A stretch of 64,000 nt of DNA, taken from positions 1,147,068 to 1,211,067 of the forward strand of contig NZ_MPIN01000002.1 in assembly GCF_001887355.1 (NCBI RefSeq), in the 5' to 3' direction. The notes beneath the pieces are model-generated. The model had not been told where the DNA came from, searched no databases, and saw only the letters and a program-made list of their open reading frames with translations. This DNA is from Cystobacter ferrugineus (GTDB lineage Bacteria; Myxococcota; Myxococcia; Myxococcales; Myxococcaceae). Both the position numbers and the translations under genes were made by a program. Every line of letters begins with the position of its first letter. Positions within the stretch are counted from its first letter, which is position 1. Below, in pieces: positions 1,951-47,986 of the stretch.

Positions 1951-1976
1951 TTTTTGTGAGTAAATATTTGGAAGGA

Positions 1977-2255
1977 TTACTCAGGGGTTGGTTCGAGGTT
2001 TTTTGGTTTGGGGATGATTGAAATGAAGCGTTGGTCTAGTTTCAATAGGGAAGCAATGGTGGTCAATCGCACGTGTGAGGACGGGTCGAGTGAGACTTCA
2101 TCTTCACATAGTATTTCACACAGGTGCTCCATTGCTACTCGACGCTCGCCGGCCATCAGAAGCCCTTCGACTATTTCATGAGCCCTGGGGTGGAGCTTGG
2201 TTCTTATTGAGTTCATCAGCAGCGTGATTTCTTCCGGGATGTCCGATTGCGTCAT
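1977..2255 (-). CDS. MafI-like immunity protein
   Basis: A 92-residue soluble, helical, acidic protein. Its layout (a helix containing HPRAHEIVEGLLMAGERRVA, then MEHLCEILCEDEV and a final short helix) resembles the MafI immunity family that partners MafB toxins in Neisseria. It starts two bases after the stop of the EndoU-like tip, so it is the natural antidote for it. MafB toxins often carry EndoU domains, which agrees with this pairing. The family call is by eye. The immunity role is inferred from context. Confidence 0.6.
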   Translation of the reverse strand: MTQSDIPEEITLLMNSIRTKLHPRAHEIVEGLLMAGERRVAMEHLCEILCEDEVSLDPSSHVRLTTIASLLKLDQRFISIIPKPKNLEPTPE

Positions 2256-2257
2256 GT

Positions 2258-3284: not shown

Positions 3285-3707
3285 AGGTGTTTTGAGCATC
3301 GTCGGCTCCGTGCAAATGTGCTCGATGAGGAACGCCCTTTTCTCGTCCAGCGCTCCGGGGTCGATGCCCGCCTGTTGGAATACTGAGCGGATGCCAGTTA
3401 CCAAATGCTCCAGCGCCGCGCGACATCCATCTGCCGCCGAAGCGATGGTGTCGAATGGTAGAAAAACAGTGAATTCTACATCCTTGTCTCTCTTGAAAAT
3501 GGTCGGCCCTTTTATCTGGGGAGCCGATATTTGTGTGTCTGCGCTGATGCGTACCACGAGATTGAAATCAGTGCCATACTTCTTCATGAACTCGGCAGAA
3601 TCATTGGCGGCTGACGATAGTTCTCCCGCCAGCCATATTTGCATTCGATGCGAGAAGGGAAAGCTCACGCCCGGTTTTATGTAGATCTGTCCAACTGATA
3701 CTTTCAT
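3267..3707 (-). CDS. Probable immunity protein of Rhs effector B
   Basis: A 146-residue soluble protein whose ATG overlaps the effector B stop (ATGA), so the two are translationally coupled. I do not recognise the family. It has a beta-rich first half (FNLVVRISADTQIS, VEFTVFLPFDTIASAADGCR) and a helical C-terminal half. Its last four codons and stop lie in the DNA where the Rhs core repeat of orphan tip 2 begins (junction at 3284), so the native C-terminus was probably replaced when the cassettes were joined. The immunity role is inferred from position and overlap. Confidence 0.6.
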   Translation of the reverse strand: MKVSVGQIYIKPGVSFPFSHRMQIWLAGELSSAANDSAEFMKKYGTDFNLVVRISADTQISAPQIKGPTIFKRDKDVEFTVFLPFDTIASAADGCRAALEHLVTGIRSVFQQAGIDPGALDEKRAFLIEHICTEPTMLKTPWPLHP

Positions 3708-7720: not shown

Positions 7721-7838
7721 CACCGACCTCCCGCGGCCGGAGTCTCCGGCCGCCAGTCCTGGCCCAGCACCGACTCGACTTCCAGCTCCATCTCCCTTGC
7801 CTCCCGAGGCCCCCGCCGCTCGTGGCTCAGCCGCACCA
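6704..7838 (-). repeat. 1.1-kb direct repeat (5' part of rhs B plus accessory tail)
   Basis: Nearly identical to 11877-13011 with a constant offset of 5173 bases. It covers the accessory-gene tail, the PAAR-like domain and the start of the Rhs shell. Downstream of this block (lower coordinates) the two rhs genes diverge strongly, so the edge near 6704 marks a recombination or divergence boundary. Confidence 0.85.
7721..7838 (-). pseudogene. Duplicated 3' remnant of the TPR accessory gene
   Basis: These 118 bases match 12894-13011, the last codons of the intact accessory gene upstream of effector A, almost base for base. They sit in the same position directly before the effector B start. Homology ends at 7838 and unrelated DNA follows. 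This shows that the duplication that made effectors A and B began inside the accessory gene. The remnant cannot make a functional protein. Confidence 0.85.
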
Positions 7839-7884
7839 TGTGGCCTTGAGCACCTCCACGATTTTCAGCGTACTTGTGGGTACT

Positions 7885-8835
7885 TTAGTTTCCCAACGGA
7901 GCAAGTCCCTTCTGGATGCGCTCGGCCCAACGACGGCTCAACCCAGTTGACGTGGAACGCCTCAAGACCTCCGCGGCGCGCAGTCGTGCTTGCTCCATGT
8001 CTGCTGAAAGAGCGGGGACCAGCATCGACATGAGTGAATGCGGAGGATAGTCTGGATCATTCGCGAAAAGCTTCGCACAACGCTCCACCGCGGCGGCGGA
8101 GAGCCGTGCGCCTCTCTTCCCTCGTGCGCGAGCCACCAGTACTTCCGCGATGAAGTGAAAGGACTCATATGCTTCAAAGAGCCGTTCGGCTTCCGGGTCG
8201 GAGAATTGCTGGCGGGATTTCGCCTTCACTCCCAGCTCTTTCAATGATTTGCTGAAAAGTGCGACACCTCGAGGATGGTTCGCCGATAGCTGTTCCGCAA
8301 GCTCGTCTTGCCGGGCTTCCTCTTCATCCGCCTCCGCCATCTCCAGTTCGTTCCTGAGTTCTTCGAAGTTGGCGAACTGCGTGATGGACTCGAAGATATA
8401 CCAGCGAGGACCTTTCTGGCCGGAATCAGGCTCATAATAGACGGTATCCGTCAAGCCGTCTCGTCGGGGGTTGAGGTCGACCAGCCATTGTCCTTCCGGC
8501 GCGAGCGTGTATTCGTGCTCCCAGCAGAACAAGCCGGTGAGGTGCCGCGCCAGCAGCTTGACCGGTTGTTCGTCCACCGGCTTGTTTGGTTCTGGCATGT
8601 CGAGGCGGGCGAACTGCAAACGCCTGGCGACGACGGCCGGATGAGGCCCCTCCTGGAATTCTCCGTCCCAGTGGATATTGTCGCTCAGCAGGTAGGCCAG
8701 CCGCTCCTCGAGCTTCTGCTCCACTTCCTCTTCATCCGTGGTCGCCAGCCTCGCGACGAACTCAGGGGTCTTCGGAAGCGGATACCCGAAGCGTTGCTCA
8801 AGCTGCTCGATCATTTCGCTCTTGGTCATGCTCAT
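7885..8835 (-). CDS. Probable immunity protein of Rhs effector A
   Basis: A 316-residue soluble acidic protein. ATG 8835 overlaps the effector A stop as ATGA, so I prefer it to the upstream ATG at 8853. It starts MSMTKSEMIEQLEQRFGYPL, has a central region with aromatic strands (LAPEGQWLVDLNPRRDG, GPRWYIFESITQF) and a helical C-terminal half. The opening and the central strands faintly recall SUKH (SMI1/KNR4) immunity proteins, but the match is weak and I leave the family open. It is about twice the usual immunity-protein size. Its role is inferred from the coupling to the toxin. Confidence 0.6.
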   Translation of the reverse strand: MSMTKSEMIEQLEQRFGYPLPKTPEFVARLATTDEEEVEQKLEERLAYLLSDNIHWDGEFQEGPHPAVVARRLQFARLDMPEPNKPVDEQPVKLLARHLTGLFCWEHEYTLAPEGQWLVDLNPRRDGLTDTVYYEPDSGQKGPRWYIFESITQFANFEELRNELEMAEADEEEARQDELAEQLSANHPRGVALFSKSLKELGVKAKSRQQFSDPEAERLFEAYESFHFIAEVLVARARGKRGARLSAAAVERCAKLFANDPDYPPHSLMSMLVPALSADMEQARLRAAEVLRRSTSTGLSRRWAERIQKGLAPLGN

Positions 8836-11800
8836 GGGATTCTTCCAGTGCATCCATTCAGCCGCGCGAAGCGTGTCGCTTTTACCTTGAGCTGTCTGGC
8901 GAGCTTGTTTGCTTTTCTTGGATCCATTCCGTCTTTGATCATCTCTTTTTCGAGTATCTCCGCGTTGGTCAGGATGTTCTCCATTGCCGACATCTTCTTC
9001 AATGAGTCAGCATCGTGAAGACCCTTGGCTCTCTGAGCGGCAGTGACCTTGGAATGGAAGTCCGGATCGAGTGCCATGGCGGGATTCTTGCGACCCATGC
9101 CCTTGTCGCGGCCCTTGTAGCCTGAATGGTTGTGCTCGAGCCATGCCGATTGGAGCAGCTCGTGTGCGTCGAATCCATCTTTCTTGTGTAGCGTGGAGGC
9201 ATAAGGAGCGATACCGAATTCCTCGAGAAGACCGAGCGGGTCGATCAGGGTCAGCGGGGTCCGCGTGTAGGCATAGGGATTGAGCCCGCCTGCGAGGCCG
9301 AGAGGATCCTTTGAAATGTAGCGCCCCGACTCCGGGTCATAGTAGCGGAATCTATTGTAGTAGAGACCCGTCTCTGCGTCCTCGTACTGCCCGGGCCACC
9401 GCCATGGGCATGTGGTCCGCGCGACTTCGACATGGGCCTTACCATAGATGTCGAGTACTGCCTTCCATGCGAGCTGCCCGGCCTCGTCAACGAGAGAGAT
9501 GGGGGTCCCGATGGGATCTCCCACGAGGGCGAAGCATTCGTCGCCCTGCGTCTTGGCAAGGGGGCGATGTGAATCGGGCTCGAAGAACCAGGTGGTGAGT
9601 GATCCCTCCTTGCCCTGCTCGTGTAGGAGGACGTCCCGGTCCCATATCCACTGGACCTCTACATCTGCCCAGCGTTTGACGGTCCTCCGGCCCAGGGCGT
9701 CATAGCTGAAGGAGACGCAAGTTCCATCGGGGCGGCGGACCTCCTTCAGCTGGCCAGCGCCATCGTAGTGGTACTTCCACTGAGCACCGGTGGCCGAGTT
9801 CTTCTCGATCAAGTTGCCATCGGCATCATAGCTGTAGTGGGTACCCCCAGCCTCGAGCAGGACTCCCCCGGGACCGTATTTCCGGTCCTGGCGTGAAGGA
9901 CTCCGATAGAGATTGCCCGATGCGTCGGACGCTCGATGCTCGACGGTGCCGTCCGGGTACCGGGCCGCCACAAGGTGTCCACGTTCATCATGATGATACC
10001 GGGTCTGACCATGCGCCATGTCGGAGAGGGATTCCAAGAAGCTACCAGGCTGCCAGGTATAACTTCTGTCGCGCAGGGTTCCTCTCGGGCTCATGAGGCG
10101 TTGTGACACTGGCCGCCCCAGCGCGTCCAGAGCTGTGAGGACCTTCGCTCCTCCCGGGAGATGCCGCTCGACCTCGGTTCCCGCCGCATCTCTGCGGAAA
10201 TCAATATGTCTCGGGCGCCTGGCTGGACCGATGGATATGGAGGCCACGCTCCCCGCATTGTCGTAGACCATGGACTCGCGCATACCCAGCGAAGACTCCA
10301 TCTGGATGCGGCGGCCCATCTTGTCATAGCGGGACTCAATCCATTCTTTGTCCTGCCACTCGCGAAGCAGGCGGCCCAATCCATCACGTTCGAATCGGAC
10401 CACTCCGAATTCGTTGGAGGCCTCGAGGAGAGCGCCATCGATACGATATTTGAAGCAGTGCTGGGCTCCATCGGCGAAACGGATCACGCTCACTCGGCCA
10501 GCGGCATCATACTCGAACCATTCCCGCTTGCCACTTGGTCGCATGGCCTCCAGGAGCCTGCTGCTCCCATCCCAGCGATAATGCCAGATACCACCATCGA
10601 ATCCATGCTCCTCCACGACACGGCCGCAAGCATCGAGGTTCAGGCGTACGCTCTCTCCCCGCCCATTCTTGACCTCACGCAGTTGGCATTCGGTGTCGTA
10701 GTGCAACTCGGACCTGGTTCCGTGTTCTTCGCTCGAGGCCAGTTTGTGGAAACCCCAGTAGGAAAAACGGACATGGCGGTGATGATCTCGTCCCTCGAGC
10801 AGATTTCCCTCGGGATCCCAGGTGAGCCGGCGGCAGTTGCCATCGTCCTCGTTCATCTCGAGCACACGGCCCTGTAGATCATGGCGCAATCGCCTGACCG
10901 CGCCGCGAGGATCCCGTTCCTCGAGCAATCGCCCCATCCGGTCGTGCTTGTAATGGGTCGTGCTGCCGTCTGGCCAATGGATCGAGGCCATATTGCCTTC
11001 GGCATCATGGGTGAATCGGGTGCATGTTCCATCCGGCGAGGATAGCGTGACAAGCAAGCCATCCTGCCAACCATAGGCACTCCGTTCACCCATTGGGTTG
11101 AGCTGGGTCAGGAGCCGGCCACGAGTATCGTACGTCCAGCTCCAGTGCCCGCCGCAGGCGTCCGTGGCACTGGTGGGGTTGTCTTGATGGTTGTATTCGA
11201 TTCTGAGTCTGGCACCATCTGGACTCGTCGTCTCCGTCAGGTTGCCGCGACCGTCATAAGTGTGCCGGTTTTCGTGGCCAAGCGGATCCACGACAGAAAC
11301 CAGGCGCAGGAATTCATCGAATGAATAGCACCATTCACTGCCAAGCGGATCCACCTCCTTCACGACAACTCCGCGCCCATCCGACTCGTACGTGGTGGTA
11401 TGGCCCAGTGAGTTCGTCACCTCGGTGACCCGGCCCTGCTTGTCGTAGCGCAGGCGATGATCGTAGATGCCTCCATCACCCCATGTGTGGACGCACCAGG
11501 CTTTCGAGTCCTCTCCGTCATATTCGAAGTAGAAGCTCAGTCCGGTGCGATCTTGCTCGCGGACGAGCAGATGCCTTGCATAGGCATAGCGCGTGGTGTA
11601 CCCCATCGGGTCGCAAGCCTCTGTCAGGTCTCCCGTGTCCGAGTACGTGTACCGGTTGTAGGGCAATAATCCAGGTTGCGACGGATGCGGCAGCCATGTG
11701 CCCACCAACCGTCCCCGTGCGTCGTGAGTGAAGCGCAGGCGTCGACGCGCGCTGTCTACCACCCACTCCAGCATGCCCCGTGCGTCATACTCGTAGGCAA

Positions 11801-12893
11801 TCGAGTGCCCCACCCGGTCGTACGTGCGGACCACCCGGCACATGCCGGTCTGCCGTTCCCCGGGGACGAGCCGCAACTCGTGCGTGAGGCCCTCCGCCGC
11901 TTCCACCTCCCAGCGCAGCTCGCCCACCCGCCGCAGCGTCAACCTGTCCACGGGTGAGTAGAGCCGTGCGCCCACGGGTATCCGCTTCCTGGGGAAGCCC
12001 GTGGTGTCGAACTCGAGCTCCCGCCCATCCTCCGCCCGGTACACCACCCGCCCATCTTCCTCCCACACCGCGAGGTCCAACGAGTGGCACCACCCGTACC
12101 CCATCGCCGTGTCCCGCCACCCCAGGCTGGAGGAGTAGTGGCGGGTGAAACGCAACGGAATGGGCCCCGGCAACTCCCAGTCCGTCGCCTCCGTCACCAC
12201 CCGCCCCGTCACCACGTCCACCGGGTGCCCCGTCAGCGTGCAGAGGGCCTTGTGCACCCTGTCGCGGGCGCGCTGGCTCAACCCCAGCTTGTCCATGACG
12301 CTGGCCGCCTTGCGGTGGATGCGGTCCGACAGCTTCCTCATCCTCAGGCTGCCCTGCTGCACCCGGCGCAGCTTCTTCAGGCCCTTGAGCAGGCCCCCCA
12401 TCGCCAGCCTCATCCCCAAGCCCATCAGGGAGATGGTGGGCGGCCCTCCCACGAAGACAGGGGGCCCGGCGGGAATGGACAGCGCGATGGACAGGGGCAA
12501 CAGCAGCGTCTTCGCCCCCGGCCCCTTCTTACGCGGTGGCGAGGGCATGCCGATGTCCTGGCAGCTCAACACCGGCAGCAGCATGTAGGTGAAGGGCTCG
12601 TCCTCCACCACCACCGTGGAGCTGCCCATGAACGTCTCGTTCTCGTTACCCGGGGGCCTGGCGAACACGCCTCCAATAGGGAAGTGCGGGGGCAGCGTGC
12701 GCCCGCCCGTGCCCGCCTGCGCCCGGGGCAGCCCGTTCACCTTCACCGTCGCCCCGATGAGAGGCAGGTAGTCGAACGGGTCGAACACGATGCCAATATG
12801 CGGGTGGGGAATGGGCACCACCGCCCCGGGCGGGGTGATGATGAAGTGGATGTCCACGCCCAGCACGGGGTCCAGGTGCTTCACCGCGAGCAT
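8832..12893 (-). CDS. Rhs effector A: PAAR-like N-terminus, diverged Rhs core, unidentified toxin tip
   Basis: A full-length Rhs effector of 1353 residues with the same PAAR-like and hydrophobic N-terminus as effector B. From about 11876 downward the Rhs shell differs strongly from B. The core ends with YRYYDPESGRYISKDPLGL-like sequence and IDPLGL. The ~130-residue tip contains DAHELLQSAWLEHNHSGY and GRKNPAMALDPDFHSKVTAA, giving a spaced set of His, Glu and Asn residues that could be catalytic, but I do not recognise the fold. ATG 12893 follows GGGAGG and shares one base with the accessory-gene stop (TGATG). The frame is open further upstream only because it runs through the accessory gene. 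Confidence 0.85.
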   Translation of the reverse strand: MLAVKHLDPVLGVDIHFIITPPGAVVPIPHPHIGIVFDPFDYLPLIGATVKVNGLPRAQAGTGGRTLPPHFPIGGVFARPPGNENETFMGSSTVVVEDEPFTYMLLPVLSCQDIGMPSPPRKKGPGAKTLLLPLSIALSIPAGPPVFVGGPPTISLMGLGMRLAMGGLLKGLKKLRRVQQGSLRMRKLSDRIHRKAASVMDKLGLSQRARDRVHKALCTLTGHPVDVVTGRVVTEATDWELPGPIPLRFTRHYSSSLGWRDTAMGYGWCHSLDLAVWEEDGRVVYRAEDGRELEFDTTGFPRKRIPVGARLYSPVDRLTLRRVGELRWEVEAAEGLTHELRLVPGERQTGMCRVVRTYDRVGHSIAYEYDARGMLEWVVDSARRRLRFTHDARGRLVGTWLPHPSQPGLLPYNRYTYSDTGDLTEACDPMGYTTRYAYARHLLVREQDRTGLSFYFEYDGEDSKAWCVHTWGDGGIYDHRLRYDKQGRVTEVTNSLGHTTTYESDGRGVVVKEVDPLGSEWCYSFDEFLRLVSVVDPLGHENRHTYDGRGNLTETTSPDGARLRIEYNHQDNPTSATDACGGHWSWTYDTRGRLLTQLNPMGERSAYGWQDGLLVTLSSPDGTCTRFTHDAEGNMASIHWPDGSTTHYKHDRMGRLLEERDPRGAVRRLRHDLQGRVLEMNEDDGNCRRLTWDPEGNLLEGRDHHRHVRFSYWGFHKLASSEEHGTRSELHYDTECQLREVKNGRGESVRLNLDACGRVVEEHGFDGGIWHYRWDGSSRLLEAMRPSGKREWFEYDAAGRVSVIRFADGAQHCFKYRIDGALLEASNEFGVVRFERDGLGRLLREWQDKEWIESRYDKMGRRIQMESSLGMRESMVYDNAGSVASISIGPARRPRHIDFRRDAAGTEVERHLPGGAKVLTALDALGRPVSQRLMSPRGTLRDRSYTWQPGSFLESLSDMAHGQTRYHHDERGHLVAARYPDGTVEHRASDASGNLYRSPSRQDRKYGPGGVLLEAGGTHYSYDADGNLIEKNSATGAQWKYHYDGAGQLKEVRRPDGTCVSFSYDALGRRTVKRWADVEVQWIWDRDVLLHEQGKEGSLTTWFFEPDSHRPLAKTQGDECFALVGDPIGTPISLVDEAGQLAWKAVLDIYGKAHVEVARTTCPWRWPGQYEDAETGLYYNRFRYYDPESGRYISKDPLGLAGGLNPYAYTRTPLTLIDPLGLLEEFGIAPYASTLHKKDGFDAHELLQSAWLEHNHSGYKGRDKGMGRKNPAMALDPDFHSKVTAAQRAKGLHDADSLKKMSAMENILTNAEILEKEMIKDGMDPRKANKLARQLKVKATRFARLNGCTGRIP

Positions 12894-13011
12894 CACCGAC
12901 CTCCCGCGGCCGGAGTCTCCGGCCGCCAGTCCTGGCCCAGCACCGACTCGATTTCCAGCTCCATCTCCCTTGCCTCCCGAGGCCCCCGCCGCTCGTGGCT
13001 CAGCCGCACCA
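11877..13011 (-). repeat. 1.1-kb direct repeat (5' part of rhs A plus accessory gene end)
   Basis: Partner of the repeat at 6704-7838. Here the accessory gene is complete, so this is probably the parental copy and 6704-7838 the derived one, or both derive from an older intact locus. Confidence 0.85.
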
Positions 13012-14219: not shown

Positions 14220-16334
14220 TCACCCGCCGTCCGCGGGCGTCGGCTCGGTGGGCTGCGCGTCCGCGGGCTCCTGCGGCTTGACGGGTTTCACTCCCTGGCC
14301 GTCGAGCGGCGCGCCCCCGCTGTTGAGGTTGAGCACCGTCCCCATCACCGAGATGCTGGCCTGGTTCAGGGTGATGAAGTTGGCCCCCACCTTCAGCGTC
14401 AGCCCCTGGGTCGCTTCAATCACCACCGTGGGGGCGCTCAGGTGGATCTCATTGCCCGCCGACAGCGCGTGATTGACGCCCACCTTCACCTGCAAGTCAT
14501 TGCCGAGGGTGATGGACCAGGTGTCACCCACCTGCTCGTTGCGCTTGCCGACGATCGTGAGGTGGCTGTCCGCGTCCACCTTCTCCTTGCGGCTCGCCTT
14601 GACGTGGATGTCCTGGTTGCCCGCTCCGTCAATGCCCCCCACCAGCAGCTTCGCGTCCCCGCCGATGTGCTCCTGGCGGTGGCGGTGCACCTTGAGGCTC
14701 TGGTCCCGCTTCACCCGCTCGTTTTGATCCCTGCCGATGGTCTGGTGTCTGTCGTTGAGGATGTCTTCCAGGGAGTCGTTCTTGACGTGCACGTCCATGT
14801 TGCGCTGGGCATGCATGAACACCTGCTCGGCGCCCTTCTTGTCCTCGAAGCGCAGCTCGTTGAAGCCCCCTCCGCCCGGCGACGAGTTCGTCCGGAGGCT
14901 GCTCTTCGTCTTCTGATCCGGCAGGGGATGGGGCGGGGGGTTGACCCCGTTGTAGACGCGTCCGGTGATGAGGGGACGGTCCGGATCGCCCTCGATGAAG
15001 TCGACGACGACCTCCTGGCCGATGCGTGGAATGAACATGCCGCCCCAGGATTCACCGCCCCAGGGCTGGCTCACCCGAACCCAACAGGAGCTCCTGTCGT
15101 CGCGCTGGCCCTCCCGGTCCCAGTGGAACTGGACCTTCACCCGGCCATGCTCGTCGACGTGGATCTCCTCGCCCGCGGGGCCCACGACGATGGCCGTCTG
15201 GATGCCTCGCACCATGGGACGCGGTGCGCGCCGGGGCGGCCGGAAGGGCACCTTCGCGGAAATACAGGAGAAGGAGTTGGAGTAGCTGAACGCATCGGAG
15301 GGCGCCTCCTCGTCCAGCACCTGCGGCTGGTGGCCCCGGTGGCTCACGCCCGTGAGCAGATAGCGGGTGTTGAAGTCACTCCGGGCGTGCTCGGCGAGGG
15401 TGAAGAAGGCGCCCGGGAGCAGCCGCTCGCAATCACTCTCGCCCTGGCCCACCTGGCGCCGGGCCTGCAACTCCTCCAGCCGCAGCTTCGCGATGCCTCC
15501 CCCCTTGGCCGAGGAGCCCCGCGCCGGCTCCTGGTACTCGCCCGGATAGTCATACACCTCCAGGTCCGTGTCCCGCTCGGCCTCATGCCCGGCGTCCATG
15601 GCCAGTTGAGGCTTCTTGAAGTTGAAGTCGCGCAGGCTCACCCGCCCCGGCTGGATCTCCTCCGAGAAGCGAAAGCCGACAATCTGCTCCACCTCGGTGA
15701 CGAGCCCACGTTCGTGGCGGAAGACGAGTGCCTCGCCGCCCGCGATGGGCTGGCATGCTCCCGGGGCATCTCCCATGACGAGCACGTGCTTGTCCTCGTG
15801 GTGCTCGAAGAAATGGAAGATGCCGTCCTCCTCCATGAGCCGGCAGAGAAAGTCCCAGTCGGACTCGCGGTACTGCACACAGTAGTTGCGTGGCTCATAG
15901 CTGCTGCTCAGCCGCAGCTCGAAGTGCTCACTGGAGACGCCCGCCCGGCGCAACACCTCCTGGAGGATGTCCGGGGTGGAGAGCTCCTGGAAGATGCGGC
16001 TGTCCCGCCGGTGCTGGAGGCGCCACACCAGGGGCACCAACGTGGCCTGGTAGAGGGTGTGGCGCGGCTTGCTCCCCACCTGCTCGAAACGCGAGACGAT
16101 GCCGTGCAAGTGGCGAGGTGCCCGCTCGCCCTCGATCGTCAGCAGGGCCTGCTGGCCCACCACGTCCGAGAAGCTCAACGCTGGATCCTCGCAGGCCAGC
16201 TCGAGCTGGAACTCATAGAGGTTCGACAGGTGCTCGTGTCCGGAGAAGCTCACGACACGCAGCGGCACCGCGCCGCCAGAGACCTCGAACCGGAACAAGG
16301 ACGTGCTCCCCACCACGGCGGTACGTGAGACCAT
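14220..16334 (-). CDS. vgrG: Type VI secretion spike protein VgrG
   Basis: A 704-residue VgrG that trimerises into the puncturing spike at the tip of the Hcp tube. The N-terminal gp27-like part contains NYCVQYRESDWDFLCRLMEE, a VgrG hallmark, and DGIFHFFEH. The gp5-like OB region contains GRVKVQFHWDREGQ and CWVRVSQPWGGESWGG followed by IPRIGQEVVVDFIEGDPDRP. A long beta-helical tail follows with repeated DIHVKASRKEKV-like strands. The last 25 residues are Pro/Glu/Ala rich. It is the first gene of the minus-strand locus, 25 bases upstream of the accessory gene. No T6SS structural genes lie in the window. Confidence 0.95.
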   Translation of the reverse strand: MVSRTAVVGSTSLFRFEVSGGAVPLRVVSFSGHEHLSNLYEFQLELACEDPALSFSDVVGQQALLTIEGERAPRHLHGIVSRFEQVGSKPRHTLYQATLVPLVWRLQHRRDSRIFQELSTPDILQEVLRRAGVSSEHFELRLSSSYEPRNYCVQYRESDWDFLCRLMEEDGIFHFFEHHEDKHVLVMGDAPGACQPIAGGEALVFRHERGLVTEVEQIVGFRFSEEIQPGRVSLRDFNFKKPQLAMDAGHEAERDTDLEVYDYPGEYQEPARGSSAKGGGIAKLRLEELQARRQVGQGESDCERLLPGAFFTLAEHARSDFNTRYLLTGVSHRGHQPQVLDEEAPSDAFSYSNSFSCISAKVPFRPPRRAPRPMVRGIQTAIVVGPAGEEIHVDEHGRVKVQFHWDREGQRDDRSSCWVRVSQPWGGESWGGMFIPRIGQEVVVDFIEGDPDRPLITGRVYNGVNPPPHPLPDQKTKSSLRTNSSPGGGGFNELRFEDKKGAEQVFMHAQRNMDVHVKNDSLEDILNDRHQTIGRDQNERVKRDQSLKVHRHRQEHIGGDAKLLVGGIDGAGNQDIHVKASRKEKVDADSHLTIVGKRNEQVGDTWSITLGNDLQVKVGVNHALSAGNEIHLSAPTVVIEATQGLTLKVGANFITLNQASISVMGTVLNLNSGGAPLDGQGVKPVKPQEPADAQPTEPTPADGG

Positions 16335-18168: not shown

Positions 18169-18188
18169 GCGTGACGGCGCCGTGACGG
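18169..18188 (+). promoter_or_regulatory. 20-bp motif GCGTGACGGCGCCGTGACGG, copy 1
   Basis: The motif contains a direct repeat of GTGACGG with 11-bp period around a perfect palindrome ACGGCGCCGT. It lies 99 bases upstream of the FN3/FG-GAP lipoprotein start. An identical 20-mer occurs at 26238-26257, about 97 bases upstream of the ELWxxDGT/HYR protein. I read it as a regulator-binding site. Confidence 0.5.
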
Positions 18189-18198
18189 CTCAATGCAG

Positions 18199-18227
18199 TT
18201 GACGCACCTGGGAACGTCGTGGAGATA
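18199..18227 (+). promoter_or_regulatory. Possible sigma-70 promoter of the FN3/FG-GAP gene
   Basis: TTGACG at 18199-18204 is a good -35 element. GAGATA at 18222-18227 (spacing 17), or GATAAC two bases on, is a weak -10. It lies just downstream of the 20-bp motif and about 60 bases before the start. This is by eye only. Confidence 0.3.
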
Positions 18228-18287
18228 ACGCCGTGCCTGCTTCCGCGGCGCACGCCGCTGCTTTCACTCTCAATCGGGGGGATTGTC

Positions 18288-21200
18288 GTGTCACGGCACC
18301 TGTATTCCTTGCTTGTCGTTTGGATGGTGGTGGGGACTGCCTGCCAATCTGGGAATGGGCCCCAGCCGCCTCCGCCCAACCCACCCGCGCGGCCCGTAGC
18401 GCCCTCTGCCCCGGGGCCGGTGGAGGCCGTCGCCGAGGTGGGCGGCGCCACGCTCGCGTGGAGCGCCCCGGCCCAGGAGGGTGGGAGCCCCATCACCGGC
18501 TACCGGGTGGACAGCGAGCCCCAGGAGGCCACGCTGTCCGTCCAGCTCGAGGGAACCACGGCCCGTGTCACGGGCCTGCACGCGGGTGTCACCTACCGCT
18601 TCTCCGTGGCGGCGGTGAACGTGGTGGGAGCCGGGCCGGCCACCTCATCGGCGGCCGTCACCCTTCCCGACGTCCCCGGAGCCCCTGCCCTGCTGTCCGC
18701 GAGGCGTGGCGATGCGAAGGTGGAGGTGACGTGGAAGGAGCCCGCGTCGGACGGAGGGCGTCCCATCACCGGCTACCTCGTCACCGCGCATCCCCAGGGC
18801 GTGCGGGTGAAGGCGGAGGCCGAGGCACGCTCGGCCGTGGTGGGGGGGCTGACCAATGGCGAGCCCTCCACCTTCACGGTGCGCGCGGTCAATGCCGTGG
18901 GTGAGGGACTCGACTCCCCCGCTTCGGCGCGCGTGGTGCCCGCGACCGTGCCCTCGGCGCCCACGGAGGTGAAGGCCACCGCGGCCATCCGCGAGGCCAC
19001 CGTCACCTGGAGCGAGCCCACGAGCACCGGCGGGCTGCCCGTGGAGGAGTACGTGGTGACGGTCGAGCCAGGTGGCACTCGCCTGCGCGAGGGCGCCGAG
19101 GCCCGGAGCGCCACGGTCACCGGGTTGAGCAACGGCACGGAGTACACCTTCACCGTGACGGCGAGGAACGAGGTGGGCGAGGGCTCCGGAGCGAGCGCGT
19201 CCAGGCAACGCACGTTGAATGTGCCCCTCGCCCCCGGCGCGGTGAAGGCCACCGGGGGCGTGCGCTCGGCCACGGTCTCATGGGAGGCCCCCGCCGGGGA
19301 CGGTGGCTCCGCCATCATCGGCTACACCGTGGAGGTCCATCCCACGGGCACGAGCGTGCGGGTGGGCGCGGAGCAGCGTGAGGTGACGTTGCCGGAGCTG
19401 CCGAGCACGCGCGCCTACACCTTCACCGTGTCCGCCACCAACGCGGTGGGAACCGGCGCCGTGTCGTCCGCTTCCTCCGCGGTGCGGCCCCTGCCGGCGC
19501 CCGTGCAGGTGACGGCCCTCACGGTGCCCTCCACCCAGGAGGGGTGCCTCTCCATCTCCTACACACTCCGGCAGCAGGACGGGGAGCGCGCCGACGTCAT
19601 CGTGGAGGTGGACGCGAAGGGAGACGGCGCCTTCCAGCGCGTCACCCAGGCTGGCTCCACCGACCACGAGGGCCTGCTCGCACGCGCCACCTCGCCGGCG
19701 GGCGCTCCCCACCGCTTCCTGTGGAACCGCGCCGTCGACGTGCCCGGTGCCACCTCGGCCCGCGTGCGCGTGAGCGCCCGGGTAGGCCGCACCGGGCAGG
19801 ACTCGAGGACGGTGGCGCTGTCGCTGCCCGCCGCCGGTCCCCGCTGCGAGCAGCGGATGGACACCGGCCGCGTCAGCACGACGCTGGCCCATCCCCGCTC
19901 GGGCACGGTGGGAGACTTCGACCGGGATGGCAAGCTGGACCTCGCCATCGTCCAGCAGCCCAACAGCTCCGCCCTGGTGCTGTTGATGGGACTGGGCAAC
20001 GGTGGCTTCCAGCCGGCCCGCCAGCACGAGCTCGGCTCCTTCCTGAGTGCGAACACCCAGCCCGTCGCCGCGGACCTGGACGGAGACGGCTCGCCGGAAC
20101 TCATCTGGGCGGACATGTCCTCGGGACTGAGCGTGGCGAGGGGCCTCGGCAATGGCGCGTTCGACACCGTCCGCGCCTATCGCTTCGGATTCAGCTCGTG
20201 GAACGAGAACATGCACCAGGGCGTCGCCGTCGCCGACTTCGACCGCAACGGCACTCCCGACGTGGCCGCGGTGGCGGGTGATGGCACCCTGGGTCTGCTG
20301 TTCAACCAGGGAGACGGGACGCTCGGCGACTTCAAGCCCCTGGGTCTCATGGGCTCCTCGGGCGCCAGGCTGACCCTGGCCGATCTCGACGAGGATGGCC
20401 ACCCGGATCTGCTGGCCGCGGGCAGCGGTGCGGCCTTCGCCGTGCTGTCCAACGGGGAGGGCCCCTCGCGCATCCAGCAGGTGGAGGGGGCGTTCCTGAC
20501 GCACGACCAGGCGCTGGGGGACTTCGACAAGGACGGCCACGTGGACCTGATCACCGCCGCGTCGCGGGACAACACCACCCAGCTCTCCCTCTTCCGGGGA
20601 GACGGCCTGGGCGGCTTCTCCGTGGCGGAGCGCGTGGCCACGCTCCAGGATGACACCTTCTTCTGGGAACATGCCTCCCTGGCGGCGGCGGACCTGGACG
20701 GTGATGGCCAGTTGGACCTCGCGGTGAAGGTCGAGGCGGACAACACCCTCGCCCTGCTGCGGGGATTGGGGGATGGGACCTTCGCGCCCGGCCCGCGGCT
20801 GCCCGCGGGACGCAGGCCCTACTTCGTCACCGCCGGAGACTTCGATGGGGACGGCGTGTCCGACGTGGCGACGCTCCAGCAGGCAAGCGACGACGTGCGC
20901 GTGTGGCTCGGGGGCCCGGGCCGCACGACCCAGGCGCTGCTCACCGGGCCTGGCAGTCACTTCGCCACGGGAGACTTCAATGGGGATGGATGGACGGATG
21001 CCGTCACCTCCACGGGGCCGGAGCTGGACCAGGTGGGAGTGAGCCTCGGTGGCCCCGGGGGCCTGTCGCCTCGGCCAGCCGTGGCGGTGGGGTCCCTCGT
21101 ACACGAGCTGCTGGTCGCGCGTGTGGACGCGGACGCGGCGCTGGACGTGGTGGTGGTGCGCGGTTCCACCGACGAGACCGTGGGGCTCCTGCTGGGCAAC

Positions 21201-21983
21201 GGCGACGGCACCCTGCGTCCCGGCCCCGACCTCTCTCCTGGAGGAGTCGTGATACACGCCGATGCTGGCGACGTGAATGGGGACGGAAGACTGGACCTCG
21301 TCTTCCTCACCCTGCGCGGGGAGGACGACTTCTACCTGCACGAGGTGCGGCTGCTGCTCGGCAGGGGGGATGGCACCTTCGCGCCTCCCGTCGTCCTGAG
21401 TGCCGGAGACAGCCCGACGCGAGCGCTTCTGGGAGACCTGGACCACAACGGCACGCTGGACCTGGTGGTGCCGCAGGATTCGTATGGCCAGGTCACGAAG
21501 GTGCTGATGGGCCGCGGTGATGGCACCTTCACGGACGGACCCTCGCTGATGCTCGGGTATGACGTCTACCTGGACGAGCTGCGCCTGGCCGACCTGGACC
21601 ACGACGGCTTCCTGGACGCCGTGTACAGCGTTCACGGCGCTGGCATGCCGTACAGCCTCTACGTGATGAAGGGCACCGGCTCCGGTCAATTCGTCCGTGT
21701 CGGCACGTACCCCGCGGAAGGAAACTGCTCCAGCCTGGACGTGGTGGACTTCGACAAGGATGGATGGCGGGACGTGCTGTGCGCCAACCCGGGCATGGAC
21801 TCGGTGTCCCTGCTGCGGGGCGTGGGCCAGGGAGTGCTCGCTCCGGCTCAGGTCTTCGGGGTCTACGAGTACGCCGCCGTGAATCTCGCGGTGCTGGACG
21901 CGAATGGGGATGGCCTGCTGGACCTGCTCCTCGGCAGTGGCCTGGGCCTCTTCGGGAAGACCGCGCTGCTCCTCCAGCGCTGA
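18288..21983 (+). CDS. Large FN3/FG-GAP repeat lipoprotein
   Basis: A secreted lipoprotein of about 1230 residues. From GTG 18288 (preceded by GGGGGG) it reads a signal peptide with lipobox VVGTAC, then a Pro-rich linker. Four fibronectin type III domains follow, each with the P-x-G-x-I/V-x-G-Y core (for example GGSPITGYRV). After a short domain around ARVRVSARVGRTG, about a dozen FG-GAP/VCBS repeats begin, with calcium-loop-like DFDRDGKLDLA, DLDGDGSPEL and DVNGDGRLDL. These should form a beta-propeller. Possible roles are adhesion or matrix binding. The start is chosen on signal-peptide position. The downstream gene converges on it across a hairpin. Confidence 0.85.
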   Translation: MSRHLYSLLVVWMVVGTACQSGNGPQPPPPNPPARPVAPSAPGPVEAVAEVGGATLAWSAPAQEGGSPITGYRVDSEPQEATLSVQLEGTTARVTGLHAGVTYRFSVAAVNVVGAGPATSSAAVTLPDVPGAPALLSARRGDAKVEVTWKEPASDGGRPITGYLVTAHPQGVRVKAEAEARSAVVGGLTNGEPSTFTVRAVNAVGEGLDSPASARVVPATVPSAPTEVKATAAIREATVTWSEPTSTGGLPVEEYVVTVEPGGTRLREGAEARSATVTGLSNGTEYTFTVTARNEVGEGSGASASRQRTLNVPLAPGAVKATGGVRSATVSWEAPAGDGGSAIIGYTVEVHPTGTSVRVGAEQREVTLPELPSTRAYTFTVSATNAVGTGAVSSASSAVRPLPAPVQVTALTVPSTQEGCLSISYTLRQQDGERADVIVEVDAKGDGAFQRVTQAGSTDHEGLLARATSPAGAPHRFLWNRAVDVPGATSARVRVSARVGRTGQDSRTVALSLPAAGPRCEQRMDTGRVSTTLAHPRSGTVGDFDRDGKLDLAIVQQPNSSALVLLMGLGNGGFQPARQHELGSFLSANTQPVAADLDGDGSPELIWADMSSGLSVARGLGNGAFDTVRAYRFGFSSWNENMHQGVAVADFDRNGTPDVAAVAGDGTLGLLFNQGDGTLGDFKPLGLMGSSGARLTLADLDEDGHPDLLAAGSGAAFAVLSNGEGPSRIQQVEGAFLTHDQALGDFDKDGHVDLITAASRDNTTQLSLFRGDGLGGFSVAERVATLQDDTFFWEHASLAAADLDGDGQLDLAVKVEADNTLALLRGLGDGTFAPGPRLPAGRRPYFVTAGDFDGDGVSDVATLQQASDDVRVWLGGPGRTTQALLTGPGSHFATGDFNGDGWTDAVTSTGPELDQVGVSLGGPGGLSPRPAVAVGSLVHELLVARVDADAALDVVVVRGSTDETVGLLLGNGDGTLRPGPDLSPGGVVIHADAGDVNGDGRLDLVFLTLRGEDDFYLHEVRLLLGRGDGTFAPPVVLSAGDSPTRALLGDLDHNGTLDLVVPQDSYGQVTKVLMGRGDGTFTDGPSLMLGYDVYLDELRLADLDHDGFLDAVYSVHGAGMPYSLYVMKGTGSGQFVRVGTYPAEGNCSSLDVVDFDKDGWRDVLCANPGMDSVSLLRGVGQGVLAPAQVFGVYEYAAVNLAVLDANGDGLLDLLLGSGLGLFGKTALLLQR

Positions 21984-21985
21984 AC

Positions 21986-22037
21986 CCCGGGCCAGGGCGG
22001 GAGCCGCGCGGACGTGCCGCGGCTCCCCCTGCCCGGG
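21986..22037. terminator. Bidirectional hairpin between two convergent genes
   Basis: The 54 bases between the two stop codons are almost wholly an inverted repeat. CCCGGG at 21986-21991 pairs with CCCGGG at 22032-22037, and the inner GGAGCCGCG pairs with CGCGGCTCC. There is no T run, as is common in very GC-rich genomes. It probably ends both transcripts. Confidence 0.6.
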
Positions 22038-25000
22038 TCAGTGCACCGGCCGCCGGCGCACGGCCAGCCACGCCAGCAGGGCGAGCATGCTCCAGGCCAG
22101 GCCCGAGCCCACCGGGACGGTGGAGCAACCTCCCGGCTCCACCACCCCGGGCAGCACGCGGACCGGGAGCGAGCACGTCGCGGTGTTCCCGGCCTCGTCG
22201 CGAGCGGTGAAGGTGACGGAGTGCTCACCCACCGCGAAGACGCCGCCGGGCCGGTCCGCCACGACGGTGGGCGCGGGGGTGATGCCGTCCCGGGCGACCG
22301 CGTCCGGGAACGTCACCTGGGCGCCCCAGTCGGCCGTGGCCTGGACCTCCACCGGCTCGGGGCACGTCACCTGGGGCGCGGTGGTGTCACGCACGGTGAC
22401 GGTGAAGCGGCAGACGGCGGTGTTGCCCGCCTCGTCCCTCGAGGAGACGCTCACCCGGGTGGTGCCTCGTGGGTAGAGCGCGCCCGAGGCGTGGCTCACC
22501 TCGAGCGTGGCCGCGGAGACGGTGTCCACGGCGGTGGGCGTCGGGAAGCTCACCGGGGTGCCCTGGGCGCTGGTGGCCTCCTCCTGGACGTCCTCGGGGC
22601 ACGTCAGCCTCGGCGCGGTGGTGTCCCGCACCGACACCCGGAAGGAGCAGGTGCTGTGCAGCCCGGCCAGATCCGTGGCGGTGACGGTGACGCGGTGGAC
22701 ACCGGGCGCCAGCGTGCTGCCCGAGGCGGGCTGGGACGTGAGCGTGGGCGCGGGCCGGACGCCATCCGAGGCCGTCGCGGGAGGGAAGTCCACGCGCGCG
22801 CCCTCGGGGCTGGTGGCCTCGACGGCGAGGTCATCCGGGCAGGCGAGCGAGGGCACCTGGGTGTCGCTGACGGTGACGACGAAGGAGCAGGAGGACGTGT
22901 TGCCCGCCGCGTCCGTGGCCGTCGCCGTCACGGTGTGCGAGCCGAAGCCGAAGAGGCTGCCCGGCGCGGCGGAGAGCGTCACGTGCGGTGAGGCCATGCG
23001 CCCGTCGGTGGCCGTCGGGGACCGGAAGTCCACATGGGCACCCGCGGCCTCGGTGCCCTCCACCGTCACGTCGCCCGGGCAGAACACGGCCGGGGACGTG
23101 GTGTCGCGCACGGTGACGTGGAAGGAGCAGGAGGCCTGGTTGCCGGCCTCGTCCGAGGCGGTCGCCGTCACCTCGGACGTGCCGAGGGGGAAGAACCCTC
23201 CGGACGTCCGGCTGAAGGTGACGGAGGGGGAGGCCGTGACGTCGTCGTGGGTCTCGAGGGCGGGGAAGAAGACGGGCGCGCCCGCGGGTTGGAGGGCTTC
23301 CACCACGAGGTCCTCGGGGCACGTCAACGTGGGCGGCTCACGGTTGGTGAGGGCCGCGACCTCCAGCAGCCAGGGCTCCCGCCCGGTGCGCCCGTCGTCC
23401 GCGGCGAAGGCGACACGGTCGCCCAGCCGGACGAAGCCACGCGGCATCGCGCTGTGGGCGCCGGGGAAGAGGTCCACCAGCCGGCGCGTGCCCTCCCGGG
23501 TGCCATCCGACAGCCACAACTCGTTGCCGGAGCCCGGCGCGGATGCGGCGAAGAGCAACAGCCCCTCGGACTCGAGCCCGAACAGACGCGAGCCCTGGAT
23601 GAGCTGGCTGTCATCGTCCTTGAAGGACGAGCCGGAGCCGGGATGGATGTCCGCCAACCGGAAGGTGCCCTCCCCGGTGCCGTCGCTGCGCCACAACTCG
23701 CGCCCGCTGACGCCGTCCTCGGCGGTGAAGAAGAGCAGCCCGCCCACCGCCACGAGCTCCTTCGGCAGCGACTCCCCGGTTCCAGGCCAGAGGTCACCCA
23801 CCCTGCGCGTGCCTCCGGAGGTGCCATCGCTCGTCCACAGCTCGGCGCCGTGCTCTGGGTCCTTGGCCACGAAGAAGAGGCGGCCCGCCGCCGCGGTGAA
23901 GCTGGTCGGCGCCACCGTGCTCGACCCGGGAGGAGCGAGCACCGCGACGAGCGCGGGTGCCTCCTGGGGCCCCCCCACGCGCCAGAGTCCCAGGCCCACG
24001 TCCGTGGTGGCCACGAAGAAGAGCGCGCCGCCCACGTCCGTGAGACCCGACGGATTGGACGAGCCACTTCCCGGCATGAGGTCCGCCACCCTCGACGTGC
24101 CCTCGGGCGTGCCATCGGTGCGCCACACCTCGCGTCCGCTGACCCCATCCTGGGCGGTGAAGTACAGCCACTGCCCCACGGGCGTGAACGAGCGGGGAAC
24201 GCTCGAGCCCCAGCCCGGCACGAGGTCCATCACCACGCGGGTGCCCTCGGGCGTGCCGTCGGTGCGCCACAGCTCCTCGCCCAGGCCGCTCTGCGTCCCG
24301 TAGAAGAAGACCTGCCCGCCGGCCGTCTCGAGGGCTCCGGGATAGGCGCCCGTCCACAGCTGCACCACGTCTCCGGAGGCCGCCCCCGCCGTCTTCCACA
24401 GGGCGCCCTGGGACCCGTAGGTCGAGAAGATGAAGTCCGAGCCCAGGGAGGCCCCCTCGGGCAAGGGCAGATCGGCCCAGTCGGAGTCCAGGGGCATCAC
24501 CGCGAACGTGCCCGCCTCCGTCCCGTCCGTACGCCAGAGGACCTGGGTGGTGAGGTAGGCGGAGCCGCCCTTCCGCTCGCGCGCATGGAAGAACCAGAGG
24601 CCTCCCGCGGTACCGAGGATGTACGGGTTGGTGCCCCCGGCGCTCCACCACTCGCGGTGGATGTCCTTCACGCGGACGGTGTTCCACGCCTGGCCCTGGG
24701 ACTTCCACAGCTCGTAGCCGGAGTGGCCGTCGTCGGCCGTGAAGTACAGGGTGTCCCCGACGGCGGACAGGTCGAGGGGCCCCGACGAGGGAGACGTGCC
24801 CGCGGCATCCCTCGGGTCGATGTTGCGCACGAGCACCGTGCCCCGCTCCGAGCCATCGCTGCGCCACAGCTCCACGCCGACGGTGGGGTCCTCGGCGACG
24901 AAGTAGAGCATGTCATTGACGGCCGTCAGCCCGCGGGCCGCGGCATCCCAGTAGGAGGTGGTGCTCTTGTACTGCTTGACGCGCACCGTGCCGGACACCG

Positions 25001-26141
25001 TGCCATCGCTGCACCACAGCTCGTCGAAGTAGGGGTAGCTCCAGGCGGCGTCCGCCACGACGAAGAAGAGCCTGTTGCCCACGGCCGTCGGCGACACCAG
25101 CCCGTCGTTCGAATAGGACAGGGTGAACTCCTTGAGGCGCACCGTGCCCGGCGCGGTGCCGTCGCTCCACCACAGGCTCCACCGGGTGGAGGTCTCCTCG
25201 ACGAGGATGGCGAGCGCGCCCTCCACCCGGGTGAGGCTCATGCTCGGGGAGGAGGTGCCAGCGGGGTCGAGCCGAAGCACGGGCCGCGTCCCGGCCGCGG
25301 TCCCATCGCTCCGCCAGAGCGACTGGCCGGAGGAGTACGACTCCCGGGCGAGGAAGTAGAGGGCGCCATCGAGTGACACCAGCCCGGGCTCGCCCGGGCG
25401 GAAGTCCACCGGTTGCGCCTCCGAGACGCGGACGGTCCCCGCCTCCGTCCCATCACTCGTCCACAGTCCGGAGCTGGTCGAGTCGCCCTCGACGGTGAAG
25501 TACAGGCGGCCCGCGTGCACCACCAGGTTGCTCACCGAGCAATACGGTTCGCACATGGAGCGCAGGGACGTGGTGACGCCGGTGGCCGGGTCGTACCGCC
25601 AGAGGGCGCGTGTGCCGTATTCGGTGAAGAAGTAGACGGCTCCGGCCAGTCCGGTGAAGCCCTTGGGTGAGGAGCCATCGGCACCGGGTCGGAGGTCCGC
25701 CAGCCGGAAGGTGCCCTCGGGAGTTCCATCGCTCCGCCACGGCTCCTGGTCCGACGCAGGGCTCCCGCCCGAGAAGTAGAGCAGCCCATCCACCTCGGTG
25801 ATCGCCCCCGGGCCGCGCACGGGCACATAGACGCTGGCCACGCGGACGGTGCCCTCGTCGGTGCCGTCCGTGCGCCACAGACCGTTCCCCAGTTGCGCAT
25901 CCGTCGCGGCGAAATAGACGAACGGCCCCATGCGGACGAAGCCGGCGGGACTGGAGCCGGAGGTCTTGTCCTCCTCGGGATGGATGTCCCGGATGGGGCG
26001 GATGGGGCGGGTGTCGGCCGTCGCGAGCGCGGCCTGGGCCAATCGCGCCGGCGCCCGCGAATCCGCGCCACCGCCAGGCGCACAGGCGGACAGCACGAGG
26101 CACAGGATCGCCAGACGCATGGGCGCTGGTTTCATCATCAT
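22038..26141 (-). CDS. ELWxxDGT/HYR repeat surface protein with MYXO-CTERM tail
   Basis: A 1367-residue exported protein. The N-terminus MRLAILCLVLSACAPGG is a signal peptide with lipobox LSAC. Residues ~60-950 are more than fifteen repeats of the ELWRSDGTxxGT type, expected to build beta-propeller blades. Five HYR/hyalin-like domains follow, each opening with a Cys-Pro strand such as PTLTCPEDLVVEA and PQVTCPEPVEVQA. The end, GGCSTVPVGS then a hydrophobic helix and RRRP, is a MYXO-CTERM sorting signal. Having both a lipobox and a MYXO-CTERM tail is unusual. ATG 26141 has GAGGGGG upstream; ATG 26132 or 26120 are alternatives. Confidence 0.9.
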   Translation of the reverse strand: MMMKPAPMRLAILCLVLSACAPGGGADSRAPARLAQAALATADTRPIRPIRDIHPEEDKTSGSSPAGFVRMGPFVYFAATDAQLGNGLWRTDGTDEGTVRVASVYVPVRGPGAITEVDGLLYFSGGSPASDQEPWRSDGTPEGTFRLADLRPGADGSSPKGFTGLAGAVYFFTEYGTRALWRYDPATGVTTSLRSMCEPYCSVSNLVVHAGRLYFTVEGDSTSSGLWTSDGTEAGTVRVSEAQPVDFRPGEPGLVSLDGALYFLARESYSSGQSLWRSDGTAAGTRPVLRLDPAGTSSPSMSLTRVEGALAILVEETSTRWSLWWSDGTAPGTVRLKEFTLSYSNDGLVSPTAVGNRLFFVVADAAWSYPYFDELWCSDGTVSGTVRVKQYKSTTSYWDAAARGLTAVNDMLYFVAEDPTVGVELWRSDGSERGTVLVRNIDPRDAAGTSPSSGPLDLSAVGDTLYFTADDGHSGYELWKSQGQAWNTVRVKDIHREWWSAGGTNPYILGTAGGLWFFHARERKGGSAYLTTQVLWRTDGTEAGTFAVMPLDSDWADLPLPEGASLGSDFIFSTYGSQGALWKTAGAASGDVVQLWTGAYPGALETAGGQVFFYGTQSGLGEELWRTDGTPEGTRVVMDLVPGWGSSVPRSFTPVGQWLYFTAQDGVSGREVWRTDGTPEGTSRVADLMPGSGSSNPSGLTDVGGALFFVATTDVGLGLWRVGGPQEAPALVAVLAPPGSSTVAPTSFTAAAGRLFFVAKDPEHGAELWTSDGTSGGTRRVGDLWPGTGESLPKELVAVGGLLFFTAEDGVSGRELWRSDGTGEGTFRLADIHPGSGSSFKDDDSQLIQGSRLFGLESEGLLLFAASAPGSGNELWLSDGTREGTRRLVDLFPGAHSAMPRGFVRLGDRVAFAADDGRTGREPWLLEVAALTNREPPTLTCPEDLVVEALQPAGAPVFFPALETHDDVTASPSVTFSRTSGGFFPLGTSEVTATASDEAGNQASCSFHVTVRDTTSPAVFCPGDVTVEGTEAAGAHVDFRSPTATDGRMASPHVTLSAAPGSLFGFGSHTVTATATDAAGNTSSCSFVVTVSDTQVPSLACPDDLAVEATSPEGARVDFPPATASDGVRPAPTLTSQPASGSTLAPGVHRVTVTATDLAGLHSTCSFRVSVRDTTAPRLTCPEDVQEEATSAQGTPVSFPTPTAVDTVSAATLEVSHASGALYPRGTTRVSVSSRDEAGNTAVCRFTVTVRDTTAPQVTCPEPVEVQATADWGAQVTFPDAVARDGITPAPTVVADRPGGVFAVGEHSVTFTARDEAGNTATCSLPVRVLPGVVEPGGCSTVPVGSGLAWSMLALLAWLAVRRRPVH

Positions 26142-26237
26142 GGTGCGTATTTCCCCCTCTGGAGAGCGCGGGCACTCCGGCCGGAGCGCGCTGACGCCCT
26201 TCTACCGCAAGCGAGGGGCGAACGTTTAGCGAGGCAT

Positions 26238-26257
26238 GCGTGACGGCGCCGTGACGG
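26238..26257 (+). promoter_or_regulatory. 20-bp motif GCGTGACGGCGCCGTGACGG, copy 2, with adjacent dyad
   Basis: Identical to 18169-18188. It lies about 97 bases upstream of the ELWxxDGT/HYR gene (minus strand) and 165 bases upstream of the XRE gene (plus strand). Directly next to it, GCAGTCGG (26258-26265) and CCGACTGC (26283-26290) form a perfect 8-bp inverted repeat. The 280-bp divergent region holds no gene. Confidence 0.5.
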
Positions 26258-26422: not shown

Positions 26423-26914
26423 ATGCCAAGTCACCTGCCCGCCGATGTCCGGAAACGATTGGCCCAGAGGCTTCGGGGAACGCTGCGCACCGCCCGCCAG
26501 AGCGCGGCGCTCACCCAGGAGCAGATGGCGCGGCGGATCGGCCTGGCCACCTCCACCTATGGGCGCCTGGAGCGGGGGACGCTGGCCCCGGGACCCGCCA
26601 CCCTGCGTCAGCTTTGCGAGGTCCTGTGCCTCACCCTGGAGTCCCTCGTCGGCTCCCGGTGCGCCGAAGCCGTGAACCGCGCCGCGCGCCCCTCCCGGCG
26701 CCGGCGCCCCGCGCGCCCGGCCGTCTCGCGCGCGCGCGCCCCCTCCCGTGCGGCGTACGCCCCGGCACCACCTCCCGCGTCTCCCCTCTATCCGCTCGGC
26801 GCCACGGACCCCTGGGGCATGTTCGGCGCTTCCCGGCCGCCGCCGCCCGAGGTGCTCGCGTTGCTGCTCGTGCGGCGCGGCACGCCCCTGGCCTTCGTGG
26901 TGGACATGGGATGA
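26423..26914 (+). CDS. XRE-family DNA-binding regulator with Pro/Arg-rich tail
   Basis: A 163-residue protein. Residues ~10-70 are a Cro/C1-type helix-turn-helix: RTARQSAALTQEQMARRIGL, then ATSTYGRLERGTLAPGP. The middle is a basic Arg/Pro/Ala linker, probably disordered. The C-terminus PPPEVLALLLVRRGTPLAFV is a short hydrophobic segment of unknown role. I chose ATG 26423 because the fold starts right after it. The stop overlaps the next ATG (ATGA), so the pair is translationally coupled. The target is unknown; the divergent ELWxxDGT/HYR gene is one possibility. Confidence 0.8.
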   Translation: MPSHLPADVRKRLAQRLRGTLRTARQSAALTQEQMARRIGLATSTYGRLERGTLAPGPATLRQLCEVLCLTLESLVGSRCAEAVNRAARPSRRRRPARPAVSRARAPSRAAYAPAPPPASPLYPLGATDPWGMFGASRPPPPEVLALLLVRRGTPLAFVVDMG

Positions 26915-46370: not shown

Positions 46371-46575
46371 GTGGATCCCCTCCCGAGAGCTGGCGTGCTT
46401 GTAGCACCTGGCGGGCCCGGGAATTCGAGGCCGGATGCGCCCCCTCAGCATCCTGTGCTCGAAAATCCGAGGCTCCCTCCGCCAGCCGACCGCCAAGTCC
46501 TTGAAGTCTCTCATTCCCGCCACGCGCACGATCCTTGCTCTACCGGCGCGGGGATACGCTTTCGAGGAACGAGAC

Positions 46576-47838: not shown

Positions 47839-47986
47839 CAGCACTGGGTCCCACTCAACATCCCATGCTCGGAAATCCGAGGCGCTCGCCGCCGCTGCGC
47901 CTCTCAAGTCCTTGAAGTCTCTCACTCCCGCCGCGCGCACGCTCCTTGCTCTACCGGCCAGCGAACACGCCTTGGGGGAACAAGAC

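Follow-up and report, generated by a model that had tools for sequence, protein, structure and literature searches.

A G+C-rich Pho-box-like repeat upstream of two giant surface-protein genes in Cystobacter ferrugineus: a candidate PhoB-dependent promoter and a probable promoter relic

Two convergent giant genes share an upstream 20-mer

The window analyzed here, a stretch of 64,000 nucleotides from Cystobacter ferrugineus, contains two convergent genes for giant exported proteins, each preceded by a copy of the 20-mer GCGTGACGGCGCCGTGACGG (Table 1). The initial annotation had described both products as beta-propeller proteins, which is fair for P0001 with its FG-GAP repeats; P0002 instead shows 12 ELWxxDGT stretches and 5 HYR stretches, and its C-terminal tail, to which no model matched, was called MYXO-CTERM-like by eye. 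P0001 starts with GTG here and with ATG at the same codon in the sister genome G002, and the TTGACG element of its putative promoter is identical in three genomes.

Table 1. Features of the locus, in window coordinates
Feature	Position	Strand	Basis or remark
Copy 1, Pho-box-like CCGTCAC-GGCG-CCGTCAC, facing away from the 18288 gene	18169..18188	-	Probable relic of a divergent promoter
Sigma70-like promoter of the 18288 gene: TTGACG, 17-nt spacer, GAGATA	18199..18227	+	Sequence; putative assignment
Two-gene block shared with G030 (another genus), ~83% DNA identity	18199..26217		Alignment ends at both flanks
P0001, giant exported lipoprotein-like protein, fn3 and FG-GAP repeats	18288..21983	+	Domain matches; export read by eye from the N-terminus
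P0002, giant exported protein, ELWxxDGT repeats, HYR domains, MYXO-CTERM-like tail	22038..26141	-	Lipobox and tail named by eye
-10-like CTAAAC, exactly 10 nt downstream of the repeat	26224..26229	-	Spacing as in E. coli phoA
Copy 2, Pho-box-like direct repeat (18-bp core 26240-26257), facing the 26141 gene	26238..26257	-	Motif, conservation
XRE-type helix-turn-helix gene, not the favored regulator	26423..26914	+	Domain match

At four loci with P0001 paralogs, of which three belong to this genome and one to G003, there is no pair of half sites spaced by 11 bp, and searches of genome contigs with P0002 (28 candidate stretches) and with alignment A1 (80) confirmed no relative. A P0001 paralog at L055 (G000:C1:826076-828643) is interrupted by a single in-frame TAG stop, and another paralog lies nearby at C1:821514. 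Elsewhere in the window, a VgrG-like gene with Phage_GPD, Gp5 trimerisation and baseplate V domains (14220-16334, minus strand) raises the prospect of a type VI secretion-type cluster next to the region. The stretches 1301-4671, 6704-12953, 30082-58636 and 46494-49213 have many exact 20-mers in common and are probable tandem or dispersed duplications.

The 20-mer is rare and has the layout of a Pho box

Both exact copies read on the plus strand of the window, copy 1 being separated by 99 bp from the GTG at 18288 and copy 2 by 96 bp from the ATG at 26141, in agreement with the initial description of identical motifs about 100 bp before two convergent genes. No further match with up to three mismatches was found in the window, where shuffled sequences gave a mean of 0.09 matches. 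As many as 1739 distinct 20-mers occur more than once in the window; most of the places listed belong to long repeated runs, and the GCGTGACGGCGCCGTGACGG pair is among the few isolated cases. The whole genome (12,049,792 bases, 42 contigs) holds 16 matches with up to three mismatches, made up of the 2 exact copies, 1 that differs at two positions and 13 that differ at three, with no single-mismatch copy among them; a reversed-pattern control gave 2. A dispersed repeat element was rejected on these counts, and the 20-mer is not the common sequence that would have spoken against a regulatory site. A coincidence of composition could draw on the G+C-rich, partly palindromic character of the 20-mer and on the 1 in 100 shuffles that held two or more matches with up to three mismatches. 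However, the scarcity of exact and near copies in 12 Mb and the presence of the motif at both corresponding places in G002 make this explanation extremely improbable, as the initial annotation had supposed.

On the minus strand the 20-mer reads CCGTCAC-GGCG-CCGTCAC, that is, two 7-bp direct repeats separated by a 4-bp spacer with a period of 11 bp. This is the layout of a Pho box (PMC4415409). The half site differs at 2 positions from CTGTCAT and at 1 from CTGTCAC, where the E. coli consensus is CTGTCAT-A(AT)A(TA)-CTGT(CA)A(CT) (PMC3465305), and it fits YGTNAC, the form of the repeated (c/t)GT(n)AC motif of Desulfovibrio vulgaris PhoB, with no mismatch (PMC3333781). The direct repeat pointed out in the initial annotation is thus borne out. 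The palindromic core noted alongside it, GGCGCC, is also real, but it is probably incidental since related sites retain the direct repeat and lack the palindrome. Both copies point in one absolute direction although their genes converge, so that relative to these genes they face opposite ways.

Sites of the same kind accompany phosphate genes

The pattern YGTCAC-N5-YGTCAC has 24 matches in the genome, compared with 1 for the reversed pattern. Three of the 24 lie in a single phosphate cluster (pstS, pstC, pstA, pstB, phoU and phoB-phoR): the phoB-phoR promoter carries a triple repeat, counted as two overlapping matches, and a double repeat lies upstream of pstC, just 19 nt before its start; pstS has no box directly upstream. 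A PhoU_div gene is also preceded by the pattern, in the reversed direction. Sixteen of the 24 matches are intergenic and 8 lie inside genes, counts that, like those below, are approximate outside the window, where genes were called with a simple codon-score script.

The 11-bp period was compared with other spacings. Among the first 100 listed of the 288 matches of an initial search, 22 were at 11 bp and the other eight spacings had 4 to 15. When pairs of CGTCAC 8 to 14 bp apart were collected, 12 of the 69 were spaced by 11 bp, and 8 of these 12 were intergenic as opposed to 10 of the 57 at other spacings (p 0.0014 in a one-sided Fisher test; the 57 control stretches have a coding density of 0.87). 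The difference persists without copies 1 and 2 (6 of 10 against 10 of 57, p 0.009). Spacings of 9 and 12 bp, both in frame, are commoner than 11 bp, with 19 pairs each; 35 of these 38 pairs lie inside genes, and we therefore read the excess as an effect of the coding frame. Counterparts in G002 exist for 8 of the 16 intergenic and 5 of the 8 coding matches, a count that leaves out the partial alignments of loci L067 and L071, so conservation between these two genomes does not separate real sites from coding matches to the pattern.

Several individual matches have features of their own. The reversed repeat at the PhoU_div (DUF47) gene lies just upstream of it (L059, 1455-1517), and reversed repeats of this type could mark repression. 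The repeat at L069 (1501-1517) lies 82 bp upstream of a GH18 chitinase-like gene, and its 17 letters recur unchanged at the corresponding position in G002. Boxes 81 to 85 bp upstream precede genes for similar proteins of about 300 amino acids with Gly/Cys-rich tails at L071 and L078 in this genome and at L114 in G001. Near position 1501 of L074 three TTTGTCAC-like units form a short array with steps of 11 and 14 bp, and no gene is clearly located downstream.

Taken together, the Pho-box layout and the sites of the same kind before phoB, pstC and the PhoU_div gene make it likely that the 20-mer is a regulator site, and copy 2 is very probably a G+C-rich Pho box. No myxobacterial Pho-box sequence was found in the literature surveyed, although one for Myxococcus xanthus may be in print.

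Copy 2 has the geometry of a PhoB-activated promoter

In the E. coli phoA promoter, 10 nt separate the box from TATAGT. The same distance recurs in the phoB promoters of five genomes (G000, which is the genome studied here, G002, G003, G001 and G010), where GTCAY repeats end 10, 21, 32 or 43 nt before a conserved CTGnTAG, each distance being 10 plus a multiple of 11. A search for YGTCAC-N5-YGTCAC followed by N11-TA gave 15 matches, spread over 9 of 34 genomes; the remaining 25 had none, and the control gave 0. These matches fall at phoB in three genomes of the genus (G000, G002 and G003), at a gene for a PhoB-like response regulator (G046), a Porin_O_P gene (G035) and an acyl-CoA dehydrogenase gene (G010), at copy 2 in both G000 and G002, at four other intergenic places and at 3 places inside genes. 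Among 13 phoB-like loci, 5 have upstream repeats; the other 8 (64 to 88% identity) have none in the 140 bp upstream that were examined.

Copy 2 has a -10-like hexamer exactly 10 nt downstream towards its gene, and copy 1 does not. The CTAAAC of copy 2 is called -10-like purely on spacing and conservation. In G002 all 20 positions of copy 2 are kept, and 57 of 60 positions agree across 26198-26257, beyond which the flanks diverge on both sides. In G030, the third genome with both giant genes, no full box was found at the P0002 start, so PhoB would not control P0002 in every genome that has it.

PhoB is a likelier regulator than the neighboring XRE protein

The phoB gene that follows the triple repeat encodes a protein with 39% identity to E. 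coli PhoB. Among NCBIfam models this protein scores best with PhoB, at a value below the curated cut-off (246 vs 296 bits). It keeps T194, R201 and R219, which are stated to contact bases in the PhoB-DNA crystal (PMC3973317), while V197 is replaced by T and E191, in the activation loop, by H. The same phosphate cluster encodes a second PhoB-like regulator, and either of the two may act at the 20-mer.

XRE operators are usually inverted repeats. The initial annotation had suggested testing the neighboring XRE protein, whose gene starts 165 bp beyond copy 2, as the regulator. An operator for this protein is very improbable: the feature kept in the 20-mer is a direct repeat, and similar motifs stand before phoB, pstC and other genes that lie at a distance from the XRE gene. 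PhoB is the more likely regulator.

Copy 1 resembles the promoter of a lost divergent gene

Copy 1 faces away from P0001, and in this genome CTGGAG occupies its -10 place. A possible origin is seen in G030, where the genes for P0001 and P0002 lie together in a block and a divergent acyl-CoA dehydrogenase gene adjoins P0001. The promoter of this gene reads GTCAC, 11 bp, GTCAC, 10 nt, CTAAAC. Among the dehydrogenase orthologs, those of G030 and G010 carry the box, and those of G000, G003 and G002 have ATCAC as the second half, the G002 box having been read by eye.

DNA left of copy 1 in G002 retains a trace of such a gene. It matches the G010 dehydrogenase leader at 33 of 39 columns, including AGGAG, and 0 of 1000 shuffles was as good for either this leader or that of G030. 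It is unlike the leaders of G000 and G003 (257 and 807 of 1000 shuffles as good), and unlike the G002 dehydrogenase leader, shortened in this comparison (654 of 1000); all of these are simple letter shuffles. Since the relic in G002 is unlike the dehydrogenase leaders found within its genus, it must have come, or been kept, from another type. The corresponding DNA of G000 holds no significant leader relic (best comparison, 76 of 1000 shuffles as good).

The divergent promoter in G030 and the leader relic in G002 point to copy 1 as a former dehydrogenase promoter. It most likely arrived as such, attached to the block, and on balance copy 1 is rather likely to be a relic.

A different reading takes both copies as functional, with the reversed copy 1 controlling the 18288 gene from upstream of the TTGACG -35 element, as an activator or repressor site, so that the two genes would form one phosphate-responsive surface module. 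Copy 1 does end 10 nt before the TTGACG, it keeps 19 of 20 positions in G002 even though the DNA to its left has been reworked (18 of 114 columns identical), and the PhoU_div gene likewise has a reversed box near its start. On the other hand, the DNA to the right of copy 1 shows almost the same degree of conservation (34 of 40 positions), and retention of copy 1 therefore may not reflect selection; in G030 the box stands 47 nt away from the TTGACG, as part of the divergent gene; and the known activation by PhoB proceeds from forward-facing boxes. We consider this reading unlikely. Slightly less likely still is a variant in which the reversed box was co-opted as a second switch of the 18288 gene after loss of the divergent gene, a regulatory capture of an orphaned promoter that would place both proteins in a phosphate-starvation surface module.

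The 20-mers could also be direct repeats left by insertion of the two-gene block, as a target-site duplication or as attachment sites, since they enclose an 8-kb block that has different surroundings in G030. The two genes of the block encode no recombinase, though, the block of G030 lacks a pair of this kind, and single sites of the type occur at phoB, at pstC and at the dehydrogenase gene, which leaves this origin with only a slim chance. A mobile cassette, considered on the ground that the ends of the block lie near the motifs, was set aside after the comparison with G030 and G002, which favored promoter ancestry, although transfer of the block from one lineage to another may have taken place.

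A model for the locus

We consider it probable that copy 2 is a PhoB-activated promoter with a G+C-rich Pho box and that copy 1 is the relic of a divergent promoter. What is observed is the sequence, its conservation and the phosphate genes next to sites of the same kind; from this we infer PhoB binding, a phosphate response and its direction, the descent of copy 1 and a role for the giant proteins, which would fit together as follows. When phosphate is scarce, phosphorylated PhoB would bind side by side on the two CCGTCAC half sites. At copy 2 the box would take the place of a -35 element, with CTAAAC as the -10 element at 10 nt, and phospho-PhoB would recruit sigma70 RNA polymerase, so that phosphate starvation would switch on the gene of the ELWxxDGT surface protein. 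Copy 1 would descend from the promoter of the divergent acyl-CoA dehydrogenase gene, which is still present in G030 and may have left its leader in G002, and would have lost its -10 element here; the 18288 gene would use its own TTGACG promoter and have no need of copy 1. The initial proposal of a shared regulator site would thus hold as to the site, given its Pho layout and the company of phosphate genes. Joint control is only half supported, as copy 1 faces away from its gene: such control is predicted to be likely for P0002 and may or may not extend to P0001.

Comparison with known Pho systems

As in the E. coli Pho box and phoA promoter, the 20-mer, a putative PhoB site, has 7-bp direct repeats with a 4-bp spacer and an 11-bp period, and copy 2 has its -10-like element at 10 nt. 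It differs in its G+C-rich CCGTCAC half sites and in a GGCG spacer where that of E. coli is A+T-rich. D. vulgaris belongs to a lineage distant from this organism. Its DVU1083 motif, with a 4-bp spacer as printed, has the form (c/t)GT(n)AC, which the half site CGTCAC fits; its targets are others, and those named in the sections of that report drawn on here include none like giant surface proteins (PMC3333781). The Pho regulon of M. xanthus (PhoP1-3 and PhoP4) answers phosphate through two-component regulators (PMC4415409), as is predicted here from sequence. Genome size and the MYXO-CTERM-like tail of P0002 are in keeping with a myxobacterial origin of the window. Literature searches on ELWxxDGT proteins, and on Pho boxes combined with surface proteins, found nothing.

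For this organism and its close relatives, the analysis offers a concrete pattern for a G+C-rich Pho box, YGTCAC-N5-YGTCAC with a -10 element at 10 nt. It also illustrates how an identical motif pair can mislead, one copy being probably functional and the other probably an orphaned promoter. The prediction for the biology of the organism is that the giant ELWxxDGT surface protein would be made upon exhaustion of phosphate.
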